A DNA stretch of 42,425 nucleotides from a virus. The stretch lies in IMG/VR virus record IMGVR_UViG_3300005663_000797, positions 1 through 42,425 of that record. The stretch is one strand, 5' to 3'. Positions within the stretch are counted from its first letter, which is position 1. Every line of letters starts with the position of its first letter. The translations under genes were made by a program, and so were the position numbers. Positions 3,397 through 42,425 of the stretch are shown piece after piece. Under the pieces are notes generated by a model. It was not told where the DNA came from. It saw only the letters and a program-made list of their open reading frames with translations, and searched no databases.

Positions 3397-3936
3397 ATGA
3401 AGTTTAAAAAAGGGGATAGGGTAAGGCATTTGATGTGTAACCAAGATGAAATAATAGAAGGATTCAATGCACGGGGTTGGATAAAGGGGCGCTACTGCGA
3501 GACAGGAGATTTATCATCAATCTTCGCTCCGCCCGAATCATATAGACTAATCAAGGAGGGAAAAGGAATGCCTATCAAAGAAAAGATTGAGAACATCAAC
3601 GAAGACACTACTATAAAGGAATTGGATGATTTGATTGTAGAGATATTGCCTGAGTTACCTTCTAACTGTATCCCGCACATTAAAATTAGAATGAACCAAT
3701 CTGCTCCCGATGCAGGTTATATCGAAGCCAGCGTCAATGGTAGAAACGAACAATTTGGTTATTGTGACCAATGCGATAAACTCCAAGCCCTCAAAAATGC
3801 TTTAATGTGGCTCGCCGAAAAATCAGGAAAGTTAAAGGACAATAAAAAGGAGGTAGAAGAACTAAAGAAAGAATTTAATCTCTATGAAGCCCGAATGCAA
3901 AAAATATCTGTGAAAATAGAAAGATTGGAGGAGTAA
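3397..3936 (+). CDS. Conserved-looking phage protein with SH3-like start and coiled-coil end
   Basis: Encodes 179 residues from the ATG at 3397, which follows AAAGGAGGGTAAG; an upstream TTG at 3352 has no ribosome site. Residues 2-12 (KFKKGDRVRHL) look like a small SH3-like barrel start. A middle segment, APDAGYIEASVNGRNE, is followed by a CDQC pair, and the last 40 residues are a Lys/Glu-rich coiled coil. I do not recognise the family. It overlaps the next gene by one base-pair step (TAATG), so the two are probably translated together. Confidence 0.65.
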   Translation: MKFKKGDRVRHLMCNQDEIIEGFNARGWIKGRYCETGDLSSIFAPPESYRLIKEGKGMPIKEKIENINEDTTIKELDDLIVEILPELPSNCIPHIKIRMNQSAPDAGYIEASVNGRNEQFGYCDQCDKLQALKNALMWLAEKSGKLKDNKKEVEELKKEFNLYEARMQKISVKIERLEE

Positions 3937-5854: not shown

Positions 5855-6256
5855 ATGGGAATATCATCAACACTATTTGAGGCGGCGAGGGGAAGGAAGC
5901 CCCGAGATCTAAAAAGGGAAGTCTGGGACTGCTTGCAGAGATACGCTGCGGGCCACTTAAATCCTAAGACTGAGGATCAGATAGCCCGCACCTTGATCTT
6001 CAATGGTTCTGGGGAGATATCTACCCGGGCAGTAAGAAGGATAATAAGGAATTTACGGTTGGGGGGAAAGTTGATAGTCTCTGATACTCACGGCTACTGG
6101 ATCCCGGTGGGACCAGAGGATAAGGAACTGGCAAGAGAATACATAGGGAAGTTGCACGACAGGGGCACTAAGATTTTTAGCCTCATAAAACCACAAGAGA
6201 TGGCTTTTGATAGGCAGTTCACCGAGCATCTGCCTTTAGAAGGGATAAATATATAA
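5855..6256 (+). CDS. Winged-helix DNA-binding-like phage protein
   Basis: Encodes 133 residues. Helices at about 40-67 followed by LRLGGKLIVSDTHGYWIP (67-84) read as a winged helix-turn-helix with its beta wing. A helical C-terminal part (YIGKLHDRGTKIF) follows. Proteins of this size and wording occur near phage replication initiators, so a regulatory or replication role is likely. Base composition is more GC-rich than the genes around it. It ends directly at the structured element beginning at 6258, and the start follows AGGAGGTAACTA. Confidence 0.55.
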   Translation: MGISSTLFEAARGRKPRDLKREVWDCLQRYAAGHLNPKTEDQIARTLIFNGSGEISTRAVRRIIRNLRLGGKLIVSDTHGYWIPVGPEDKELAREYIGKLHDRGTKIFSLIKPQEMAFDRQFTEHLPLEGINI

Positions 6257-6257
6257 T

Positions 6258-6476
6258 GGGCCTACGGGGGCTGGTGGCGTGAAAAACACGCTGGTTAGTG
6301 GGGGCGACCTCAACAAAGAAGTAGAGGTGCTTGCGCAATGAGCGATCGTTGGTCACTGTTTGGCGAGTATGATATCTTAGTCAAACACACAGTCACAACC
6401 CGTCGGTGATGATTCCGACCTAAGCCTACAAAGAAAGACGCAGGCAGTTAATCCTGCCCAGCCCCCAGGTCCACCA
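6258..6476 (+). ncRNA. Candidate structured RNA with tRNA-like 3' end
   Basis: A GC-rich 219-base region between genes. GGGCCT (6258-6263) pairs with AGGTCC (6467-6472), and after a two-base AC bulge GGGGGCTG (6266-6273) pairs with CAGCCCCC (6459-6466). The closing helix is thus 14 bp, ending in 3' ACCA. The third pair is G-U and the base before CCA is A, both tRNA-Ala identity features. A hairpin GGCAG/CTGCC with loop TTAATC (6443-6458) abuts the helix like a T-arm. Other hairpins are 6277-6291, 6307-6328, 6357-6387 and 6402-6419. No U-tract follows. Two overlapping tiny frames (6279-6341, 6338-6409) also lie inside, so a degraded coding region is the main alternative. Confidence 0.5.
6338..6409 (+). 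CDS. Possible 23-residue peptide inside the structured element
   Basis: ATG preceded at 8 bases by AGAGGTG, encoding MSDRWSLFGEYDILVK plus seven more residues. A GTG-started 20-residue frame (6279-6341) overlaps it by ATGA. The ribosome site lies in the 3' arm of a hairpin (6307-6328). It could be a regulatory peptide, a remnant of a decayed gene, or chance. Confidence 0.2.
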   Translation: MSDRWSLFGEYDILVKHTVTTRR

Positions 6477-6492
6477 ATGAGGAGGTGAAATA

Positions 6493-6687
6493 ATGCAGGA
6501 AGCAGAAATACAGGAATGGAAGAAGAGAATTGATGTGATGTCTCACGAAGAGATGGCGAGACTATGGAGGTTCGCACCATCAGGGCATCCAGTATTCAAA
6601 AGAGATCTACCACTATTTGACTATTTTGATGAAAGGTTTAAGAAGTTCGGTCGTTTCACTCCAGACATAAGTAAAAAAATAGGTTGA
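6493..6687 (+). CDS. Small phage protein with the SHEEMARLWRFAPSGHP motif
   Basis: Encodes 64 residues. The block MSHEEMARLWRFAPSGHPVF followed by an acidic/aromatic middle and FTPDISKKIG matches a short protein family I recognise from many tailed-phage early regions. Its function is unknown. A very strong GAGGAGGTGAAATA ribosome site lies directly after the structured RNA, so that RNA could control its translation. Confidence 0.65.
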   Translation: MQEAEIQEWKKRIDVMSHEEMARLWRFAPSGHPVFKRDLPLFDYFDERFKKFGRFTPDISKKIG

Positions 6688-6702
6688 TAAATAATGGTTA
6701 AT

Positions 6703-6765
6703 GAGGAGGATAGAGTTAATGGTTAAAAGAATTTCCCGTTCCTTTCACCGCGCTCTGTCCTCCTC
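6703..6765 (+). promoter_or_regulatory. 13-bp stem-loop masking a ribosome site
   Basis: GAGGAGGATAGAG (6703-6715) pairs along its full length with CTCTGTCCTCCTC (6753-6765, one G-U), loop 37 bases. The 5' arm is a near-perfect ribosome site for an ATG at 6719 that opens a 21-residue frame (6719-6784) ending just before the replication gene. The stem would hide this site. No U-tract follows. Confidence 0.5.
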
Positions 6766-6787
6766 TTCAGATAAGGAGATATAAGAG

Positions 6788-7549
6788 ATGCCAGAAGGAA
6801 GAATGTTAAAAAAGACGATAAGTAAAAACAAATATCTTGGGATATTAAACGATATTGATTGTTGTGTAGTTTTTACTTGGATTATTCCCTTTTTAGATAT
6901 AGAAGGACGATATTATGGTGAACCTCAAATTATAAAAGGAGAGATCTTTGTAAGACTTAAAAAGATGACAGAATATCGTATTGAAAAAGCACTTCAAAAG
7001 TTATCCACAACCCCACTGGTGCTTTGGTATAAGGTTGCTAATGGAGAAAGATATGTATATTTTCCTGATTTTAAACAAAACCAGAAACTACGAGAGGGAA
7101 GAGAGGCTAAGTCCCATATTCCTGCACCTACTCCTGACCAACTCCAGAGTAAGTCCCGACCTACTCCAGAGTTGCCCCGCACAAGTAAAGTAAAGGAAAG
7201 TAAAGTAAAGATAAGTAAAGACAGCAAAGCAGGCAAGCCTGTCCTTTCCAAAACCACTAAAGACCTTTTAGACAATGTGTATAAACAGGGTTTTAATATC
7301 TATGCCTTATTAGGACGGTTCAAAAAGAAAAGTAAGATTAACCTACCAGAGGCCGTAATTGAGAAAGTCTGTTTGTCTTACCTTAAAAACCACGAAAAAA
7401 TTCAAAATGACTGGCCGTGGTTCATTACCGCAGTTAAGAAAGCAAGCAGAGAGTATTTTGCCGAGCAGAGCATCAGGGAAGGACAGGGATACAAAAACCA
7501 TCCTGTGGCTTTGAGTATCAAAGAAATTATGAAGAAGATGGGGGGATAA
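6788..7549 (+). CDS. Replication initiator / replisome organiser (DnaD-like)
   Basis: Encodes 253 residues. The N-terminal third (about 8-110) reads as the winged-helix domain of phage replisome organisers: a NKYLGIL start, DIEGRYYGEPQIIKGEIF and a wing ending YVYFPDFKQNQKLREGR. A Lys/Ser/Pro-rich linker (110-155) leads to a helical C-terminal domain with a W-containing NDWPWFITAVKKA block, as in proteins that load the host helicase. Such proteins bind the phage origin and recruit host DnaB/DnaC. No phage helicase or polymerase is visible, which fits dependence on the host replisome. Start follows AAGGAGATATAAG. Confidence 0.7.
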   Translation: MPEGRMLKKTISKNKYLGILNDIDCCVVFTWIIPFLDIEGRYYGEPQIIKGEIFVRLKKMTEYRIEKALQKLSTTPLVLWYKVANGERYVYFPDFKQNQKLREGREAKSHIPAPTPDQLQSKSRPTPELPRTSKVKESKVKISKDSKAGKPVLSKTTKDLLDNVYKQGFNIYALLGRFKKKSKINLPEAVIEKVCLSYLKNHEKIQNDWPWFITAVKKASREYFAEQSIREGQGYKNHPVALSIKEIMKKMGG

Positions 7550-12447: not shown

Positions 12448-12620
12448 CCGAGGATGCCCTTGATGTATTAAGGAAGCACTGCAAGAAGATAAAGCACGGC
12501 TCGATAAAGCCCTTCGTTATACTCAAGGACGGGGTTGCGGTAGAGGTAAGGGTGCAGATGGGCGATGTGATGATAAAATTGAGACCAGAAAAAAAAGACT
12601 TGACAAATACGAAAAAATAG
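12444..12620 (+). CDS. 58-residue protein of unknown function, last of the early operon
   Basis: ATGA overlap with the HNH gene. Strands such as KPFVILKDGVAVEVRVQ suggest a small beta fold. Its 3' end overlaps the -35 region of the promoter at 12600. Not recognised. Confidence 0.6.
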   Translation: MTEDALDVLRKHCKKIKHGSIKPFVILKDGVAVEVRVQMGDVMIKLRPEKKDLTNTKK

Positions 12621-12628
12621 TATATTCT
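12600..12628 (+). promoter_or_regulatory. Sigma70-type promoter for the packaging module
   Basis: TTGACA (12600-12605), 17-base spacer, TATTCT (12623-12628). A TATATT two bases upstream would give a 15-base spacer. It lies in the end of the preceding gene and drives the leader RNA and terminator that follow. Confidence 0.7.
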
Positions 12629-12637
12629 ACTATAAAC

Positions 12638-12704
12638 AATAGAGACTGAGCCTAATAAAGGCAGGTTGTAGTTCGCTGACTAACTGACTCAAGAACTGAG
12701 AGGT
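12638..12704 (+). ncRNA. Leader RNA between promoter and terminator
   Basis: Begins with AATAGAGACTGAGCC, nearly identical to the start of the leader at 1646-1661. It also contains the 23-base block 12655-12677 (ATAAAGG ... GTTGTAGTTCGCT), shared with the structured element at 18201-18222. Small local helices are possible (GCC/GGC, CTC/GAG). With its terminator it could be a free small RNA of about 100 bases or an attenuator controlling the genes from 12752. Confidence 0.5.
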
Positions 12705-12738
12705 GGCCAGCATTCCGAAAGGAGTGTTGGCCTTTTTT
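12705..12738 (+). terminator. Perfect intrinsic terminator with GAAA tetraloop
   Basis: A 12-bp stem (12705-12716 with 12721-12732, including two G-U pairs) capped by GAAA (12717-12720) and followed by six T. It lies only 13 bases before the start of the packaging module and just after its promoter, so downstream expression requires read-through. Confidence 0.88.
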
Positions 12739-13847: not shown

Positions 13848-13963
13848 TTATTTATGAACAAACGAGCATCTTTTATTAAGTATTTACAAGGTTTTAAGAC
13901 AAATGAGCAACAAATCAGACTATTCTTAATCATTCAATAATAGACTTTCGAGGGTGAGGGTCA

Positions 13964-14308
13964 ATGTCCGATAACGTGTCATCTGTCAACTTGGAGGAGA
14001 AAATGGGTAAGGTTTTGAGGGAAGAAGACAATTATAGCAAATTCTATGACCAAGTTTATGGTCGTGATAATCCAAAAGGCAAAGCATCGGGTTGGATACA
14101 ATGGAAAGGGACTGATGTCTGTATAGATTTAGTTTGTGAGTGTGGTGAAAGAAACCACTTTGATGGTGACTTTTTCTACTTTTATCAATGTCAGAAGTGC
14201 TTAAGAATATATGCAGTAGGGCAAAACATTAAATTGATTAAGTTATCTGCAGAAGAAATCAAACTTGGTGATCTTGAAAATTGGCAATATAAAGTGGGAC
14301 AGGATTAA
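13964..14308 (+). CDS. Zinc-ribbon protein upstream of TerL
   Basis: Encodes 114 residues. CECG and CQKC (in the last half, within a beta-rich DLVCECGERNHFDGDFFYF ... YQCQKC block) form a zinc ribbon. Its stop directly abuts the TerL start. The family is seen, to my knowledge, next to phage terminases, but its role is unknown. GAGGGTGAGGGTCA precedes the start. Confidence 0.6.
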   Translation: MSDNVSSVNLEEKMGKVLREEDNYSKFYDQVYGRDNPKGKASGWIQWKGTDVCIDLVCECGERNHFDGDFFYFYQCQKCLRIYAVGQNIKLIKLSAEEIKLGDLENWQYKVGQD

Positions 14309-18134: not shown

Positions 18135-18139
18135 ATAAC

Positions 18140-18252
18140 GGGGGTTGGGGATTAGCCAGGTATCGGGATTGGTATATACCAACGCAGGATTGACCCAACC
18201 ATAAAGGGCGTTGCAGTTCGCTACTGCTGAAATCCAATTCTGTCCAACCCCC
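18140..18252 (+). ncRNA. Structured RNA with alternative closing helices
   Basis: GGGGGTTGG (18140-18148) pairs perfectly with CCAACCCCC (18244-18252). The same 5' segment can instead pair as GGTTGGG (18143-18149) with CCCAACC (18194-18200). Inside are a perfect palindrome TTGGTATATACCAA (18169-18182) and a hairpin GCAG/CTGC with a 7-base loop TTCGCTA (18213-18227). The block 18201-18222 is nearly the same as 12655-12677 in the packaging leader. It precedes a strong terminator at 18294. No convincing promoter is visible just upstream, so it probably acts in cis on read-through transcripts. Confidence 0.55.
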
Positions 18253-18293
18253 TCCAAACTTAATACCTTAACAGGACAATCCTGAATAAGTGA

Positions 18294-18329
18294 AGCCTGT
18301 TGGTTCTAATGAACCAATGGGCTTTTTTT
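18294..18329 (+). terminator. Intrinsic terminator before the late operon
   Basis: A 13-bp stem (18294-18306 with 18311-18323, two G-U pairs), TAAT loop and a run of seven T at 18323-18329. It lies 16 bases before the next start codon, so the morphogenesis genes depend on read-through or on an unseen promoter. Confidence 0.87.
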
Positions 18330-18345
18330 ATTGGAGGTGACAAGA

Positions 18346-24152: not shown

Positions 24153-24164
24153 TTTTTAATCTAT

Positions 24165-24196
24165 CTTGCGGGGGAGTTCCATAACTTCTCCGCAGG
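24165..24196 (+). promoter_or_regulatory. 14-bp hairpin without U-tract
   Basis: CTTGCGGGGGAGTT (24165-24178) pairs along its full length (three G-U) with AACTTCTCCGCAGG (24183-24196), loop CCAT. No T-run follows. It lies 20 bases before the start of the structural gene at 24216 and may stabilise its mRNA 5' end or mark an RNA processing site. Confidence 0.65.
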
Positions 24197-24215
24197 TAGA
24201 ACAAGGAGGAATGAA

Positions 24216-26735: not shown

Positions 26736-26745
26736 CTGAATTTGT

Positions 26746-26833
26746 GGAGGGGCAGGATTTTATACTTGTGGTATTCAGTCGCACTGTGGTAACACAAAGG
26801 ACTGACCACTTTTCATAGACCTCCTGCCCCTCC
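26746..26833 (+). ncRNA. Structured RNA element between structural genes
   Basis: A perfect 12-bp helix, GGAGGGGCAGGA (26746-26757) with TCCTGCCCCTCC (26822-26833), encloses three stacked helices: GTGGT/ACCAC (26768-26772, 26805-26809), CAGTC/GACTG (26776-26780, 26800-26804) and TGTG/CACA (26785-26788, 26793-26796) capped by GTAA. No U-tract follows, so it is not a normal terminator. It lies between two genes 10 and 13 bases away. Possible roles are mRNA stabilisation, processing or translation control. Confidence 0.7.
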
Positions 26834-26846
26834 GTGAGAGAGAATT

Positions 26847-37382: not shown

Positions 37383-38185
37383 ACCCCAATACTTTAGCCC
37401 TATCGCCCGGGCAAGTCTTAACAGACGAAGCCCGCCGCCGACAGGAAACCCTACAACGAGAACAGATGCAAAAGCAATTCGCCATCGCCCAAAGAAGGAT
37501 AACAGCACAGCAAAGAGCCACCGAGATGCAGAGACAAGCAAGAACCCAGCAGTATGGACTTCAGAGGAACATAGCAGAGGCGAGAATCAGAGAACAGCAA
37601 GCGGGCAGGACCTCAAAGGAAAAGATGTTTGGCGAAGCAATGGAAGCAGAAAGAACAGGTAAAATGACAAAGTTCAGCAGGGATGTTTATTTAAGAGCCT
37701 TGAGTGAGGGCTTTATGCCTGAAGCAGAATCACCTTCAATGATGCCAGGAGTAGAGGGGATGCCTTCCTTAGTTGCACCACCTACAATAACCGAAGAACA
37801 AAGAGCAGGGTTGGCTGGAAAGGCAGGGCTTGAACCATCTGGATTAACAGAAAAGGCAAGACTAAGATATGCGAGACCACTAAAAACACGAATTGAAATG
37901 ACCCCCAGAGAAATAAAAATATGGGAGTCTAAAGGATGGATGCAGGGGCCGGGCAAAAGATGGATATCACCAGTAAAACTAAAAGAGACCTTTTTAGACA
38001 CATTGCCCCCCAAAGAACGCCCAAAGACCTTTTTCGGAAAACTTGAAACCAATGATGTAACTTGGTTCATTATGCAGAAAATGAGCACTTATGAAGATTT
38101 ACAAGATTTGATGCGTAATCGAAAAGCCTACGAAAAGCAAGGTGTAAATGTTCGCTACATTCTAAATTATTTTAGGAAAGAATAA
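37367..38185 (+). CDS. Second ejection-type internal virion protein
   Basis: Encodes 272 residues. Gln/Arg-rich coiled coils (RRRQETLQREQMQKQFAIAQ) fill the first 100 residues, then a Pro/Ala/Glu linker and a basic C-terminal domain (TPREIKIWESKGWMQGPGKRW). Composition and position suggest an internal virion or ejection protein. ACGGAGGTGCAATT is the ribosome site inside the homing gene. TAATG links it to the giant protein. Confidence 0.6.
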   Translation: MPFGIDPNTLALSPGQVLTDEARRRQETLQREQMQKQFAIAQRRITAQQRATEMQRQARTQQYGLQRNIAEARIREQQAGRTSKEKMFGEAMEAERTGKMTKFSRDVYLRALSEGFMPEAESPSMMPGVEGMPSLVAPPTITEEQRAGLAGKAGLEPSGLTEKARLRYARPLKTRIEMTPREIKIWESKGWMQGPGKRWISPVKLKETFLDTLPPKERPKTFFGKLETNDVTWFIMQKMSTYEDLQDLMRNRKAYEKQGVNVRYILNYFRKE

Positions 38186-41100
38186 TGGCTCTAAAACTGC
38201 TGGAAGGCTATATCCCGGAAGAAGAAAAGAAGAAGTTACGGCTTCTTAGCGACTATGAACCGACTATGCCTATTCGACCACCCATAGAAGAACCCACCCA
38301 ACCCTTTACTCCTACCGAACCATCCCCCTTTGCCAGAGTCAAAGAATTATTCCAGAGACCAGAAATAATGCAAGCAATCAAAGCACCATTGGAGTTAAGA
38401 TTGGGTGTTGGCCCAAGCGTGGAACTTGTAGGTAGAAAGGCATTGGAATATTGGCATCGTGCCTCAACAGCAACATTGAGTGCCTTAGAAGCACAAGCAG
38501 TAAGCACTACAAAACCTTGGGCCAAGAAACCTATTTTACCTGCTCTTAGAAGTGGCTGGAGATTAGAAGTTCCAGAAGAAGAGTTAAGTGAATCATTGGT
38601 TACTGCTATGGGATTATCCCCCACAGAAGCAATAGGATTTAAGCCTACTGCCCAGCGAGTAGGCAGGGAATTTTTAAAGGCTTGGTATCAAACTTACGGA
38701 ACTGACCCTGTAATATTCGCTTTGAATGTAAAAGCGTTGCCTGCTGCCAGAAAAATAGCACTATTTAATAAAGCGGTTAACATAGCAGGCAAAAAAGGAG
38801 CGGAAGTTTTGGCTACAGTTCGGCCTGATATATCTCCCAAAATAGCAGAACGATTCTTTAAAACTTTAGCCCGAAACACTATGGGAAGGCAGATGGCTAT
38901 TGCCAAAGTCAACCTAAAAGGCGTTAAGACAAGTGAATTAAAAAGACTAATAAGAACCCTTAAAACTATAAAACCCATACCGCCTGCTCCCAAAATAGCA
39001 CCACCCATTCCACCCACCAAAGCAATAGTTCCTGTTAGACCTCCTGTAACCCCACCTGCTCCACCCGTCACTCCACCGATTACTCCAGTAGCAAGACCCC
39101 CAGTAACTCCCCCAGCAGTCCCACCAGTTGCACCTGAAGTAATAAGAAATGCTAAACAAGAAATAAATAGATTAACCTTGCGGGAAAATTTATCAAAAGA
39201 GAATATAGTAAAAGCAGAAAAACTACTAACACAAATACCTCGTGGAAAGGCATATCAATACGGAGATTTTGCACGAGTTATTAGGGATGCCAAAAAAGAC
39301 TTGCTCATCAAACCCACCCCACCACCAATCCCCAAAGAACTTGAACCATTGGCAGTAGAAGCGAGGAAGTATAAGAGTGCGGAGGAATTTTATTCCAAGA
39401 TTAAAGATACTCTAACGAGAGAAAATTTCAAAAACTTATCAAGAGGTGGATTTGGAAGCATATGGGGGGTTCGGGAGCAAAGAATGCCATCAGAAGTTCT
39501 CAAATCCTTCTACCAACAAGCAATAAAGGGTATGCCTACCCCTAAAGAACCATTTAAACCCGCTGTGGCTAAACCTGGTGAGGCTGTGAGGGTGTTTGAG
39601 GCAGGATTACCAGAGGAACAAAAACTATTAGAATTTAAAAAGATGCTAAAAGGAGAGGGTTTTGTCACATATCCCGCCTCTCCCGCATTGAAACGGTTTA
39701 TTCGGGGTCTTCCTGAAAATGTAGTTAAAAGAGAAGCGATAGCAGAATACGAAAGAGTCTTTAAAGTTTTTGCCAAGAAGCCATCTCCTGCTGTATTTAA
39801 AAAACGTATTCGTTCTGTAACAGGCTTAGAACCAAGTCCCTTTGTTCCAGTTAGAAAAGATATTTTATTAAAAGAACGAGTGCGAGCAGAAGCAAGGGGC
39901 GCAAGGTTTGGAGAACTTGAAGGTAGAAGGCAAAAACAGGTTGTTATAAATGACATCCGTGCTAAACAAAGAGGTATTCAAGAAATTAAAACCGATGCGA
40001 TTACTTATCTCAATCAAAACCTTGGACTAAAAGATAGGGGCAAATTCTTAGTCGCTGTCAGAGATGTTAAAAAATCAGAAGAATTGGTTACTATTATAAA
40101 CAGGGCAGAAGCAGTAAGCGCACAAACAGGACGACGTTTTGCTATTGATGCCCTTAAAAGAGAATCCAAACGAACCAGAAAAATACTTGCTATTGGAAGA
40201 AGAAAAAAAGGAAAACCGAGGATATCCGTAGAAGCTCAAGATAGATTAAGGGGCATTATTGACAATTTAACCCAGTTCAAGCCCGGCGGAGAAAAGCAAA
40301 GAGCCATAGAAATGGCCTCCACTTTTTACGCCACCCATCCCGATCAAGCAATGCCACCCGAGTTAAAGAAAAAGGTTTACGATTTAAGCAGGGCGAATAT
40401 CTCTGAAATGTCCACCGAGGAAATTAAACAACTTACTAAAGACATCCGATCAATAAGAGAATCGGGAAGAACGGCATTAGAAGTAAAAGAAGAGGCCCGA
40501 TTACAGATATTGGAGCGCAATAAGTCGGGGCTTATTACCAGTATAAATAGGCATAGCATAAAAAAGCCCGAAGTAGTAGAACCGGGAAAGGTTCTTACTC
40601 CCGCAGAACGCAGAAAGAGTAAATTTGTCCGGTTGAAAGAGAGTCTCAATAGGGCTACCTTTGAACTAAAAATACCTTCCTTTATTACTGACGCTTTGGA
40701 TGGATATAAAATGTTTCCAGTTTTGGGTAAAGCCCACCAGTTAATATCGGCCCCGATAAATAAAGCATCAGATTTAGAAGAAAGCGGAATATCCCAAATA
40801 AATAAAAAGGTGGCCCAAATTCTTTCTCCTCTGGGTAAGAAAGCAAGTTGGTATTTAGGCCAAGAAGAGACTATTTTGGGACGGGAGTTCACTAAAGAAA
40901 ATATGTGGGCAATATATGCAAACAGTAAAAATGCTTCTAATAGAGCCACTTTAACTGAAGATTGGGGATACAATTTTTCTGAGGAATTAGTTAATGAGAT
41001 TGTATCAAAAGTAAACCCCAGAGATAAACGAATGGTAGATAGGATAATGAAAGAGGTCGTCGAGGACATCTACCCGGAAACGGTCAGAGTAACGCAGGAG

Positions 41101-42425
41101 TATAGTGGATTTACCCCTAAGACGGTGAAAGATTATTGGATGATTATGGGGGACAAAGAACTTTCTGATAGAGTTCTTATGCGGGAAAAAGAAAAAGATT
41201 TACTTGCTGATGTTTGGAAAAAGACCTCTATGGACTTGGGTTCAGTAAAAGAGCGAGTAGGGCGCTCGGGAGCACCAGACCTTAGTTTCTTCAGGGTATT
41301 AAAAAGGCATACAACCGAAACTATCCATTTTAATACTCACGCTTTAGCAGTAAGGAATGTTCAAGAAGTTATTAATGATCCAACAGTAAAAGAAGCAATG
41401 ATTAACTCTATAGGAAAAGGCGGATATAATGCCCTTAAATCTTCTCTTTCAGATGTGGCCAATCCCAAGAAAACCCCGGCAAGTTGGCTTGAGTCAAGGG
41501 CGAAGGGGTTAAGGAGGAACTCCACTGCTGTAATGCTTGGAATAAAAGTTTCCGTTTCTCTTCTTCAAGGTGGCTCTATCTTCCAGACTATTTACCGGAC
41601 AGGATTGCCAAATACTCTTTGGGGAATAAAAACCTATTGGAAAAATCCCAGAGTGGCGGATAGATTCATTTATGAACATTCCCCAGCACAGAAATATAGA
41701 AGACGTAGTTTTGACAGAGAACTTAAAGAGTTAATAGACGGGATGGATTGGCTGGGTAAATTGCCCGGAGCAAGAAATTTGGTTTTTTCTATGATACAGG
41801 GAGTTGACCATATTACTACGATGCCTTCTTGGCTATCGGCATATCATCAAGCAGAAAAAAGAAGGTTATCTCTTGAAAATATCATTGCTCACGCTGACGA
41901 CATAGTGGAAAAAACCCAGCCTACGGGAAGAATAAAAGCCCTTGCAAAAATAATGAGGGGTAGTGAGTTCCAGCATTGGTTTACGATGTTTTACACTTTT
42001 TTCAGTAATGCTTATAACAATATGTCTCACGCAGGGGGAAAATTCAGATACCGAGTTGCAAAAGGGGAGATAAAGGAAAGAGTGTTGTCCTTTGCGGAAT
42101 TTTCAAGGGCTTATTTCTGGTTGCTTATTATGACAGGTCTTTATGCAGCGATGGTTAGAAAGCCTCGCAAGTTTTTTACCAGAGATTGGGGTAGAGAAAA
42201 AATGACTTATCTGGCAAAGTCTATCGGTTCTTATGCTTTGGGAACAATTCCTTTTGTTAGAGACATTGGCAATGTGATTATCAATCCTCAATTTGATTTT
42301 ACTGGTTCTCCAGTATTTGGGGTCGGGAAAGAAGCCAAAATTTTAGCCCAAAAAAGAGCCAAGACCATCGAGGGGATACAGAAACAAAAGGAACGAAAAC
42401 TCAAGGCTGGAACTATGATTGGCGG
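38185..42425 (+). CDS. Giant polyvalent internal virion protein (LPD38-like), truncated by window end
   Basis: At least 1413 residues with no stop before the window edge, starting by TAATG overlap. The N-terminal part is helical; residues about 262-316 form a Pro-rich linker of repeated PVTPP-type units. Long basic and helical regions follow. From about residue 1030 the sequence (FFRVLKRHTTETIHFNTHAL, STAVMLGIKVSVSLLQGG, QHWFTMFYTFFSNAYNNMSH) resembles the LPD38 region of large polyvalent phage proteins. A hydrophobic segment is near 1309-1324. Such proteins are packaged and ejected with DNA. The C-terminus may lie at 1-276. Confidence 0.7.
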   Translation, partial: MALKLLEGYIPEEEKKKLRLLSDYEPTMPIRPPIEEPTQPFTPTEPSPFARVKELFQRPEIMQAIKAPLELRLGVGPSVELVGRKALEYWHRASTATLSALEAQAVSTTKPWAKKPILPALRSGWRLEVPEEELSESLVTAMGLSPTEAIGFKPTAQRVGREFLKAWYQTYGTDPVIFALNVKALPAARKIALFNKAVNIAGKKGAEVLATVRPDISPKIAERFFKTLARNTMGRQMAIAKVNLKGVKTSELKRLIRTLKTIKPIPPAPKIAPPIPPTKAIVPVRPPVTPPAPPVTPPITPVARPPVTPPAVPPVAPEVIRNAKQEINRLTLRENLSKENIVKAEKLLTQIPRGKAYQYGDFARVIRDAKKDLLIKPTPPPIPKELEPLAVEARKYKSAEEFYSKIKDTLTRENFKNLSRGGFGSIWGVREQRMPSEVLKSFYQQAIKGMPTPKEPFKPAVAKPGEAVRVFEAGLPEEQKLLEFKKMLKGEGFVTYPASPALKRFIRGLPENVVKREAIAEYERVFKVFAKKPSPAVFKKRIRSVTGLEPSPFVPVRKDILLKERVRAEARGARFGELEGRRQKQVVINDIRAKQRGIQEIKTDAITYLNQNLGLKDRGKFLVAVRDVKKSEELVTIINRAEAVSAQTGRRFAIDALKRESKRTRKILAIGRRKKGKPRISVEAQDRLRGIIDNLTQFKPGGEKQRAIEMASTFYATHPDQAMPPELKKKVYDLSRANISEMSTEEIKQLTKDIRSIRESGRTALEVKEEARLQILERNKSGLITSINRHSIKKPEVVEPGKVLTPAERRKSKFVRLKESLNRATFELKIPSFITDALDGYKMFPVLGKAHQLISAPINKASDLEESGISQINKKVAQILSPLGKKASWYLGQEETILGREFTKENMWAIYANSKNASNRATLTEDWGYNFSEELVNEIVSKVNPRDKRMVDRIMKEVVEDIYPETVRVTQEYSGFTPKTVKDYWMIMGDKELSDRVLMREKEKDLLADVWKKTSMDLGSVKERVGRSGAPDLSFFRVLKRHTTETIHFNTHALAVRNVQEVINDPTVKEAMINSIGKGGYNALKSSLSDVANPKKTPASWLESRAKGLRRNSTAVMLGIKVSVSLLQGGSIFQTIYRTGLPNTLWGIKTYWKNPRVADRFIYEHSPAQKYRRRSFDRELKELIDGMDWLGKLPGARNLVFSMIQGVDHITTMPSWLSAYHQAEKRRLSLENIIAHADDIVEKTQPTGRIKALAKIMRGSEFQHWFTMFYTFFSNAYNNMSHAGGKFRYRVAKGEIKERVLSFAEFSRAYFWLLIMTGLYAAMVRKPRKFFTRDWGREKMTYLAKSIGSYALGTIPFVRDIGNVIINPQFDFTGSPVFGVGKEAKILAQKRAKTIEGIQKQKERKLKAGTMIG

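Follow-up and report, generated by a model that had tools for sequence, protein, structure and literature searches.

A large structured RNA between two genes of a podophage-like virus, possibly an intergenic punctuation element with a tRNA-Ala-like end

Introduction

What is the 219-nt stretch that fills the space from a stop codon at 6254–6256 to a ribosome site at 6480–6487 in this phage genome? The window, by which we mean the whole stretch of DNA analyzed, is the 42,425-base virus record IMGVR_UViG_3300005663_000797. Its genes matched phage families for terminase, portal, major head protein, ParB, exonuclease, and replication initiation. Because the nearest head proteins came from two records titled Podoviridae sp. 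(Manatee Spring), and also from Arthrobacter, Microbacterium, and Cellulosimicrobium phages, the virus is best described as podophage-like. In the mapped parts of the contig, the + strand carries nearly all of the genes, densely packed; 38185–42425 looks coding as well, with a frame open past the contig end. The stretch in question, here called element A, is followed by a gene at 6493–6687 for a 64-aa protein (LWRFAPSGHPVF), which had no match in PHROGs or Pfam, has no assigned function, and is 51 to 59% conserved in nine viral contigs (L096–L104).

Results

Element A is a strongly structured, non-coding RNA

The features of element A and of the ribosome site behind it are as follows.

6258–6476, + strand: element A, the whole structured non-coding RNA, 219 nt (folding z-score, lowest-energy window, no clear coding signal or protein match)
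6258–6274, + strand: closing helix, 5' strand, GGGCCU-AC-GGGGGCUGG (folding, helix-energy test)
6279–6356, + strand: long imperfect arm P2 (pair probabilities over 0.9)
6357–6387, + strand: hairpin P3 (pair probabilities)
6402–6419, + strand: hairpin P4, GUCGG-UGAUGAUU-CCGAC, with tandem stop codons in its loop (folding, motif check)
6440–6458, + strand: hairpin P5, in T-arm position next to the closing helix, with the loop UUAAUC and not UUCRANY (folding, motif check)
6458–6472, + strand: closing helix, 3' strand, CCAGCCCCC-AGGUCC (folding, helix-energy test)
6473–6476, + strand: ACCA directly 3' of the helix, a tRNA-like or RNase P RCCA-like tail (sequence; significance from helix energy)
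6480–6487, + strand: Shine-Dalgarno sequence (AGGAGGUG) of the 64-aa gene, which starts at 6493 (sequence, folding)

Element A had a minimum free energy of −90.8 kcal/mol (z −5.1) that 0 of 200 shuffles equaled, and its region had the lowest folding energy among all 220-nt windows of the contig; the z-score alone is not exceptional, since some coding windows reach −6. No long open frame overlaps the element, and by codon use it is not coding overall, although its first frame, of 20 codons, is coding-like. Element A is a real, non-coding, strongly structured element, and the earlier proposal of a structured non-coding phage RNA was supported, as neither a clear coding signal nor homologous proteins were found.

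The closing helix, which is GC-rich, pairs 6258–6263 with 6467–6472 and 6266–6274 with 6458–6466 around a bulge of A6264 and C6265. The 14-bp helix of the earlier note (6 + 8 bp with an AC bulge) was therefore found, at an extent of 6 + 9 bp, and a rival fold competes for the ninth pair of the inner part. Sequence and folding also gave the G-U at the third pair, the single-stranded ACCA at 6473–6476, and the hairpin that abuts the helix, all as the note had them. This hairpin, P5, occurs in two registers, 6440–6457 or 6443–6458. Among the other internal hairpins that the note had drawn, two small ones gave way to the long imperfect arm at 6279–6356, and GGCGUG-AAAAA-CACGCU was disfavored, its bases lying in that arm with over 90% pairing probability.

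How unusual a helix flanked by ACCA is depends on how it is measured. By pair count alone, about two ACCA-flanked helices of at least 14 bp are expected per shuffled contig. In energy, the closing helix (−29 kcal/mol) exceeded the best ACCA-flanked helix in 1499 contig shuffles (−26.6) and the best in 2000 local shuffles (−21.0). The ACCA-flanked helix is thus significant by energy and not by pair count. Related loci totaling 2.2 Mb were also scanned for NCCA-flanked helices, and among the 60 strongest, only that of element A lies outside any long open frame.

We found no promoter or terminator of element A's own on the + strand at 6258–6476, and within the contig no antisense targets or repeats of at least 13 nt. 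The suggestion that the element controls translation from the ribosome site at 6480–6489 found no backing in the shorter folds, which did not strongly sequester the Shine-Dalgarno sequence: its mean unpaired probability was 0.59 to 0.63 in folds of 260 to 400 nt and 0.30 in a 600-nt fold.

Element A has a tRNA-Ala-like acceptor end but fails the tRNA and tmRNA tests

The pairs G1-C72, G2-C71, and G3-U70 and the base A73 are conserved in nearly all tRNA-Ala, with G4-C69 as a minor determinant (PMC9976931). Element A has all four of the former features, followed by CCA; its fourth pair is C-G (C4-G69), so the minor determinant is absent. Given that U6257 can pair with A6473, A73 would be unpaired only if the RNA were cut after U6257. 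RNase P cuts 4.5S RNA and tmRNA precursors, phage RNAs, and model hairpins, and it needed a 3' RCCA on the pseudoknot substrates of one study (PMC12710915); the sequence and fold of element A contain such a helix followed by a 3' RCCA.

ARAGORN found no credible tRNA cloverleaf in element A (relaxed thresholds gave only implausible intron-containing hits) and no tmRNA on the + strand, and Rfam returned no family at its gathering threshold and no tmRNA match even at E 10. The T-loop motif, whether UUCRANY or UUCRA, and the tmRNA D-loop motif GGAUUCGAC are both absent from the element. A tRNA acceptor has 7 bp where the closing helix has 6 + 9, and the candidate tag frame ends in KHTVTTRR followed by UGA UGA, with no hydrophobic degradation tag. 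With the ARAGORN, Rfam, T-loop, and D-loop tests all failed, we rejected element A as a tRNA or tmRNA, and the mimicry proposed earlier does not extend to membership in either class.

No relative of element A was found in other genomes

DNA searches found no homologue of element A in phages or plasmids. Exact-pattern searches gave matches that share the pattern only in viral contigs, and only short stretches around it in genomes. The routes through neighboring genes (ParB, TerL, and the upstream gene) led to no close relative, and none of the relatives in the TerL alignment, at up to 50% identity, has the element. A covariance model of element A run against 1,832 bacterial genomes gave one weak partial match and no homologue; that match (L320), from a GC-rich genome, falls within an open frame of 490 aa and was set aside as chance, as was another candidate (L064) whose alignment was poor and gapped. 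These searches were built on a single sequence, which would miss diverged relatives, and the collections searched may omit records very close to the window.

The element is also absent upstream of the homologues of the 64-aa gene in the nine other viral contigs, which marks it as an insertion between genes and not as a leader of that gene. In one of these contigs, a structured stretch rich in GC (CCTGGGGCCG...CGGCTCCAGG, followed by T6) lies a short way upstream of the homologue (L103, ~3580–3720), and another carries the Rfam Proteo-phage-1 RNA (L101:998–1081, 71.6 bits). Strongly structured intergenic gaps, with z-scores of −5 to −8 and some of them terminator-like, occur in related phages too (L230:19083–19183 and 13872–14158; L282:16615–16886).

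Structured gaps recur in the genome, and one shares a helical core with element A

When the intergenic gaps were folded, five had z-scores of −3.8 or lower: that of element A, and those of elements E (6688–6787), B (18135–18345), F (24153–24215), and D (26736–26846), the latter four at −3.8 to −5.9. With 5 structured gaps out of 21, the binomial probability is 3e-4 to 3e-6, a rough estimate. The gap set comes from a hand-made gene map, and short gaps give noisy z-scores, which coding windows can match. The features in these gaps are as follows.

6703–6765, + strand: element E, a 14-bp closing helix in the gap next after that of A (z −3.8)
18138–18252, + strand: element B, with the closing helix GGGGGYUGG/CCARCCCCC and the abutting arm ACGCAGG in common with A, then UCCA (A/B comparison)
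18292–18325, + strand: intrinsic terminator downstream of B
24160–24200, + strand: element F, a long hairpin (z −4.9)
26742–26837, + strand: element D, whose 16-bp closing helix takes up the gap from a stop codon to the following gene (z −5.9)

The placement of these structures is recurrent. The closing helix of A lies 1 nt behind the stop codon and 20 nt ahead of the next start; the corresponding distances are 8 and 12 nt for D (helix counted from 26744 to 26834), 15 and 22 nt for E, and 7 and 15 nt for F. These four structures thus start 1 to 15 nt after a stop and end 12 to 22 nt before a start, leaving just the ribosome site. For element B the distance from a stop codon is 5 nt, and the intrinsic terminator follows it. 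The repeated placement of structures in the space from a stop codon to a ribosome site favors a function in cis within a polycistronic transcript.

Elements A and B share three blocks in the same order, ACGGGGG(C/U)UGG, ACGCAGG, and AAU(C/U)CUG(C/U)CCA(G/A)CCCCC. They are identical at 31 of 35 positions in order (the best of 5000 shuffles reached 26), for a motif picked after seeing both elements. In a comparison that covers these two copies in one genome, their differences keep 14 of 14 pairs: one change in the closing helix is compensatory (C-G to U-A), and two turn G-C into G-U. A less post hoc test took the nine strong 9-bp helices of the + strand, among which those of A and B were the most alike (10/11), a likeness matched in 1 of 315 shuffled contigs. 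A covariance model built from B alone misses A, probably since the two carry different inserted domains, and kinship between the two is therefore probable but not proven.

What the two share is the inner helix and the abutting arm, while the outer helix, the G-U, and the ACCA occur in A only. The acceptor-like part is thus not the conserved part, which argues against the idea that the common function is selected mimicry of tRNA-Ala. Of the acceptor end described in the earlier note, then, G3-U70, A73, and CCA stand, and the resemblance to alanine tRNA is limited to one copy and may be due to chance.

Another stretch, element C (12600–12738), has a promoter-like TTGACA-17-TATTCT, a leader of ~75 nt, and a strong terminator (12705–12732, T6), and directly precedes the operon with the terminase small subunit; it resembles a small RNA or else a late leader with attenuation. 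The hairpin GTTGYAGTTCGCT, with the loop UUCGCU, occurs in both C (12665–12677) and B (18210–18222), and a stretch of D, CAGU-CGC-ACUG (~26775–26785), resembles it.

Discussion

We give about an even chance to the explanation that element A acts in cis, as an RNA structure between genes that punctuates a polycistronic mRNA, the largest of about five in this genome, and possibly excised from the transcript. Its structure is confined to the space between stop codon and ribosome site, as in an intergenic mRNA processing element, and such structures recur in the genome. The spacing, the core common to A and B, the failure to find a promoter or terminator of A's own on the + strand, and the absence of the element from the nine contigs with homologues of the downstream gene argue for this explanation. 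Against it, element A, at 219 nt and multi-branched, is far larger than punctuation needs, and the kinship of A and B carries the post hoc motif and the covariance model that misses A. In addition, terminators close both B and C, and a promoter-like site is present in C, so that these two may instead be small RNAs or leaders of a different kind.

As punctuation, element A would fold immediately on transcription, hold the end of the upstream cistron and the downstream ribosome site apart, and block or guide nucleases. These could be RNase III-type enzymes cutting in the long helices, or RNase P cutting 5' of G6258, directed by the helix and ACCA. The upstream mRNA would gain a stable structured end and the downstream gene a short open leader, and an excised stable RNA might be a product of the processing. 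RNase P action on A is plausible, since the enzyme accepts substrates with a helix and RCCA (PMC12710915), and RNase III action is plausible for all of the elements by analogy with T7.

Alternatively, element A may be a free non-coding 219-nt phage RNA, cut from the operon transcript at its tRNA-like end by RNase P acting before G6258, and perhaps charged with alanine or serving as a decoy. We regard this as possible though rather unlikely. The helix energy that beat 1499 shuffles, the major alanine determinants (PMC9976931), the hairpin placed like a T-arm, and the RCCA rule and substrate range of RNase P, which includes phage RNAs (PMC12710915), all argue for it. Yet the paralogue B is without the outer helix and ACCA, T-loop and D-loop motifs are absent, the acceptor is 14 to 15 bp long, and we found neither a promoter on the + strand at A nor a homologue. 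Improbable in our estimate is the bolder form in which A and B make up a new phage RNA family with a common helical core, neither tRNA nor tmRNA, and A, bearing a genuine alanine-type acceptor end, is excised by RNase P and aminoacylated with alanine. A highly divergent tmRNA, with tRNA-like ends around a short tag frame and its stops in the P4 loop, is the least probable reading of all. Such RNAs do exist in phages (402 of 18,146 genomes; PMC9004378), and the architecture of a closing tRNA-like helix, a T-arm-like hairpin, and a hairpin loop holding tandem UGA (expected ~0.03 times in 219 nt) recalls them, but this reading founders on the failed Rfam and ARAGORN searches, the missing GGAUUCGAC and UUCRA, and a frame end unlike a degradation tag.

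Decayed or tiny genes could account for the frames 6279–6341 and 6338–6409, which touch, joined by ATGA, and the first of which (20 codons) is coding-like in codon use at 0.24 bits per codon. However, codon use in the second is that of non-coding sequence (−0.15), neither frame has a match in PHROGs nor the second in phage genomes, and decay leaves the folding signal and the A/B pairing unexplained; we consider this quite improbable. Slightly more improbable still is a DNA-level site for replication origin, recombination, or attachment. It would suit the strong inverted repeat of element A, which lies ~310 nt upstream of a gene (6788–7549) that matches phage replication initiation proteins. 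Nevertheless, the region is GC-rich with no change in GC skew there, no iterons or long repeats were found, the copies B, D, E, and F are located between other pairs of genes, and bulges and non-palindromic arms fit RNA better.

How would a punctuating element compare with known systems? In T7-like phages, RNase III or intergenic processing elements place stable RNA between a stop and the next ribosome site of a polycistronic mRNA. Element A has the same layout on a far larger scale, with several branches and a long closing helix, a likeness of arrangement; RNase III sites are annotated in T3 and T7 (PMC3276506). RNAs matured by RNase P, such as the precursors of 4.5S RNA and tmRNA and phage RNAs (PMC12710915), share with A a helix followed by RCCA on the 3' side, whereas element B has U-CCA and no outer helix, and A itself is a candidate substrate. 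The likeness to the acceptor end of tRNA-Ala and tmRNA (PMC9976931) comprises G1-C72, G2-C71, G3-U70, A73, and CCA; element A differs in its bulged helix of 14 to 15 bp and C4-G69, and in having no T-loop, D-loop, anticodon, or tag. Like the large ornate phage RNAs GOLLD and ROOL, it is an unexplained structured RNA in phage DNA, but it has no Rfam match and, at 219 nt, falls far short of their size.

Annotations seldom include structured RNA at the junctions of phage genes. With several such elements, two of them related, in one genome, this virus offers a testable case of how a phage might partition a long transcript by RNA structure, and if the tRNA-like end of element A is functional, a phage RNA would be exploiting the tRNA machinery of its host in a new manner.
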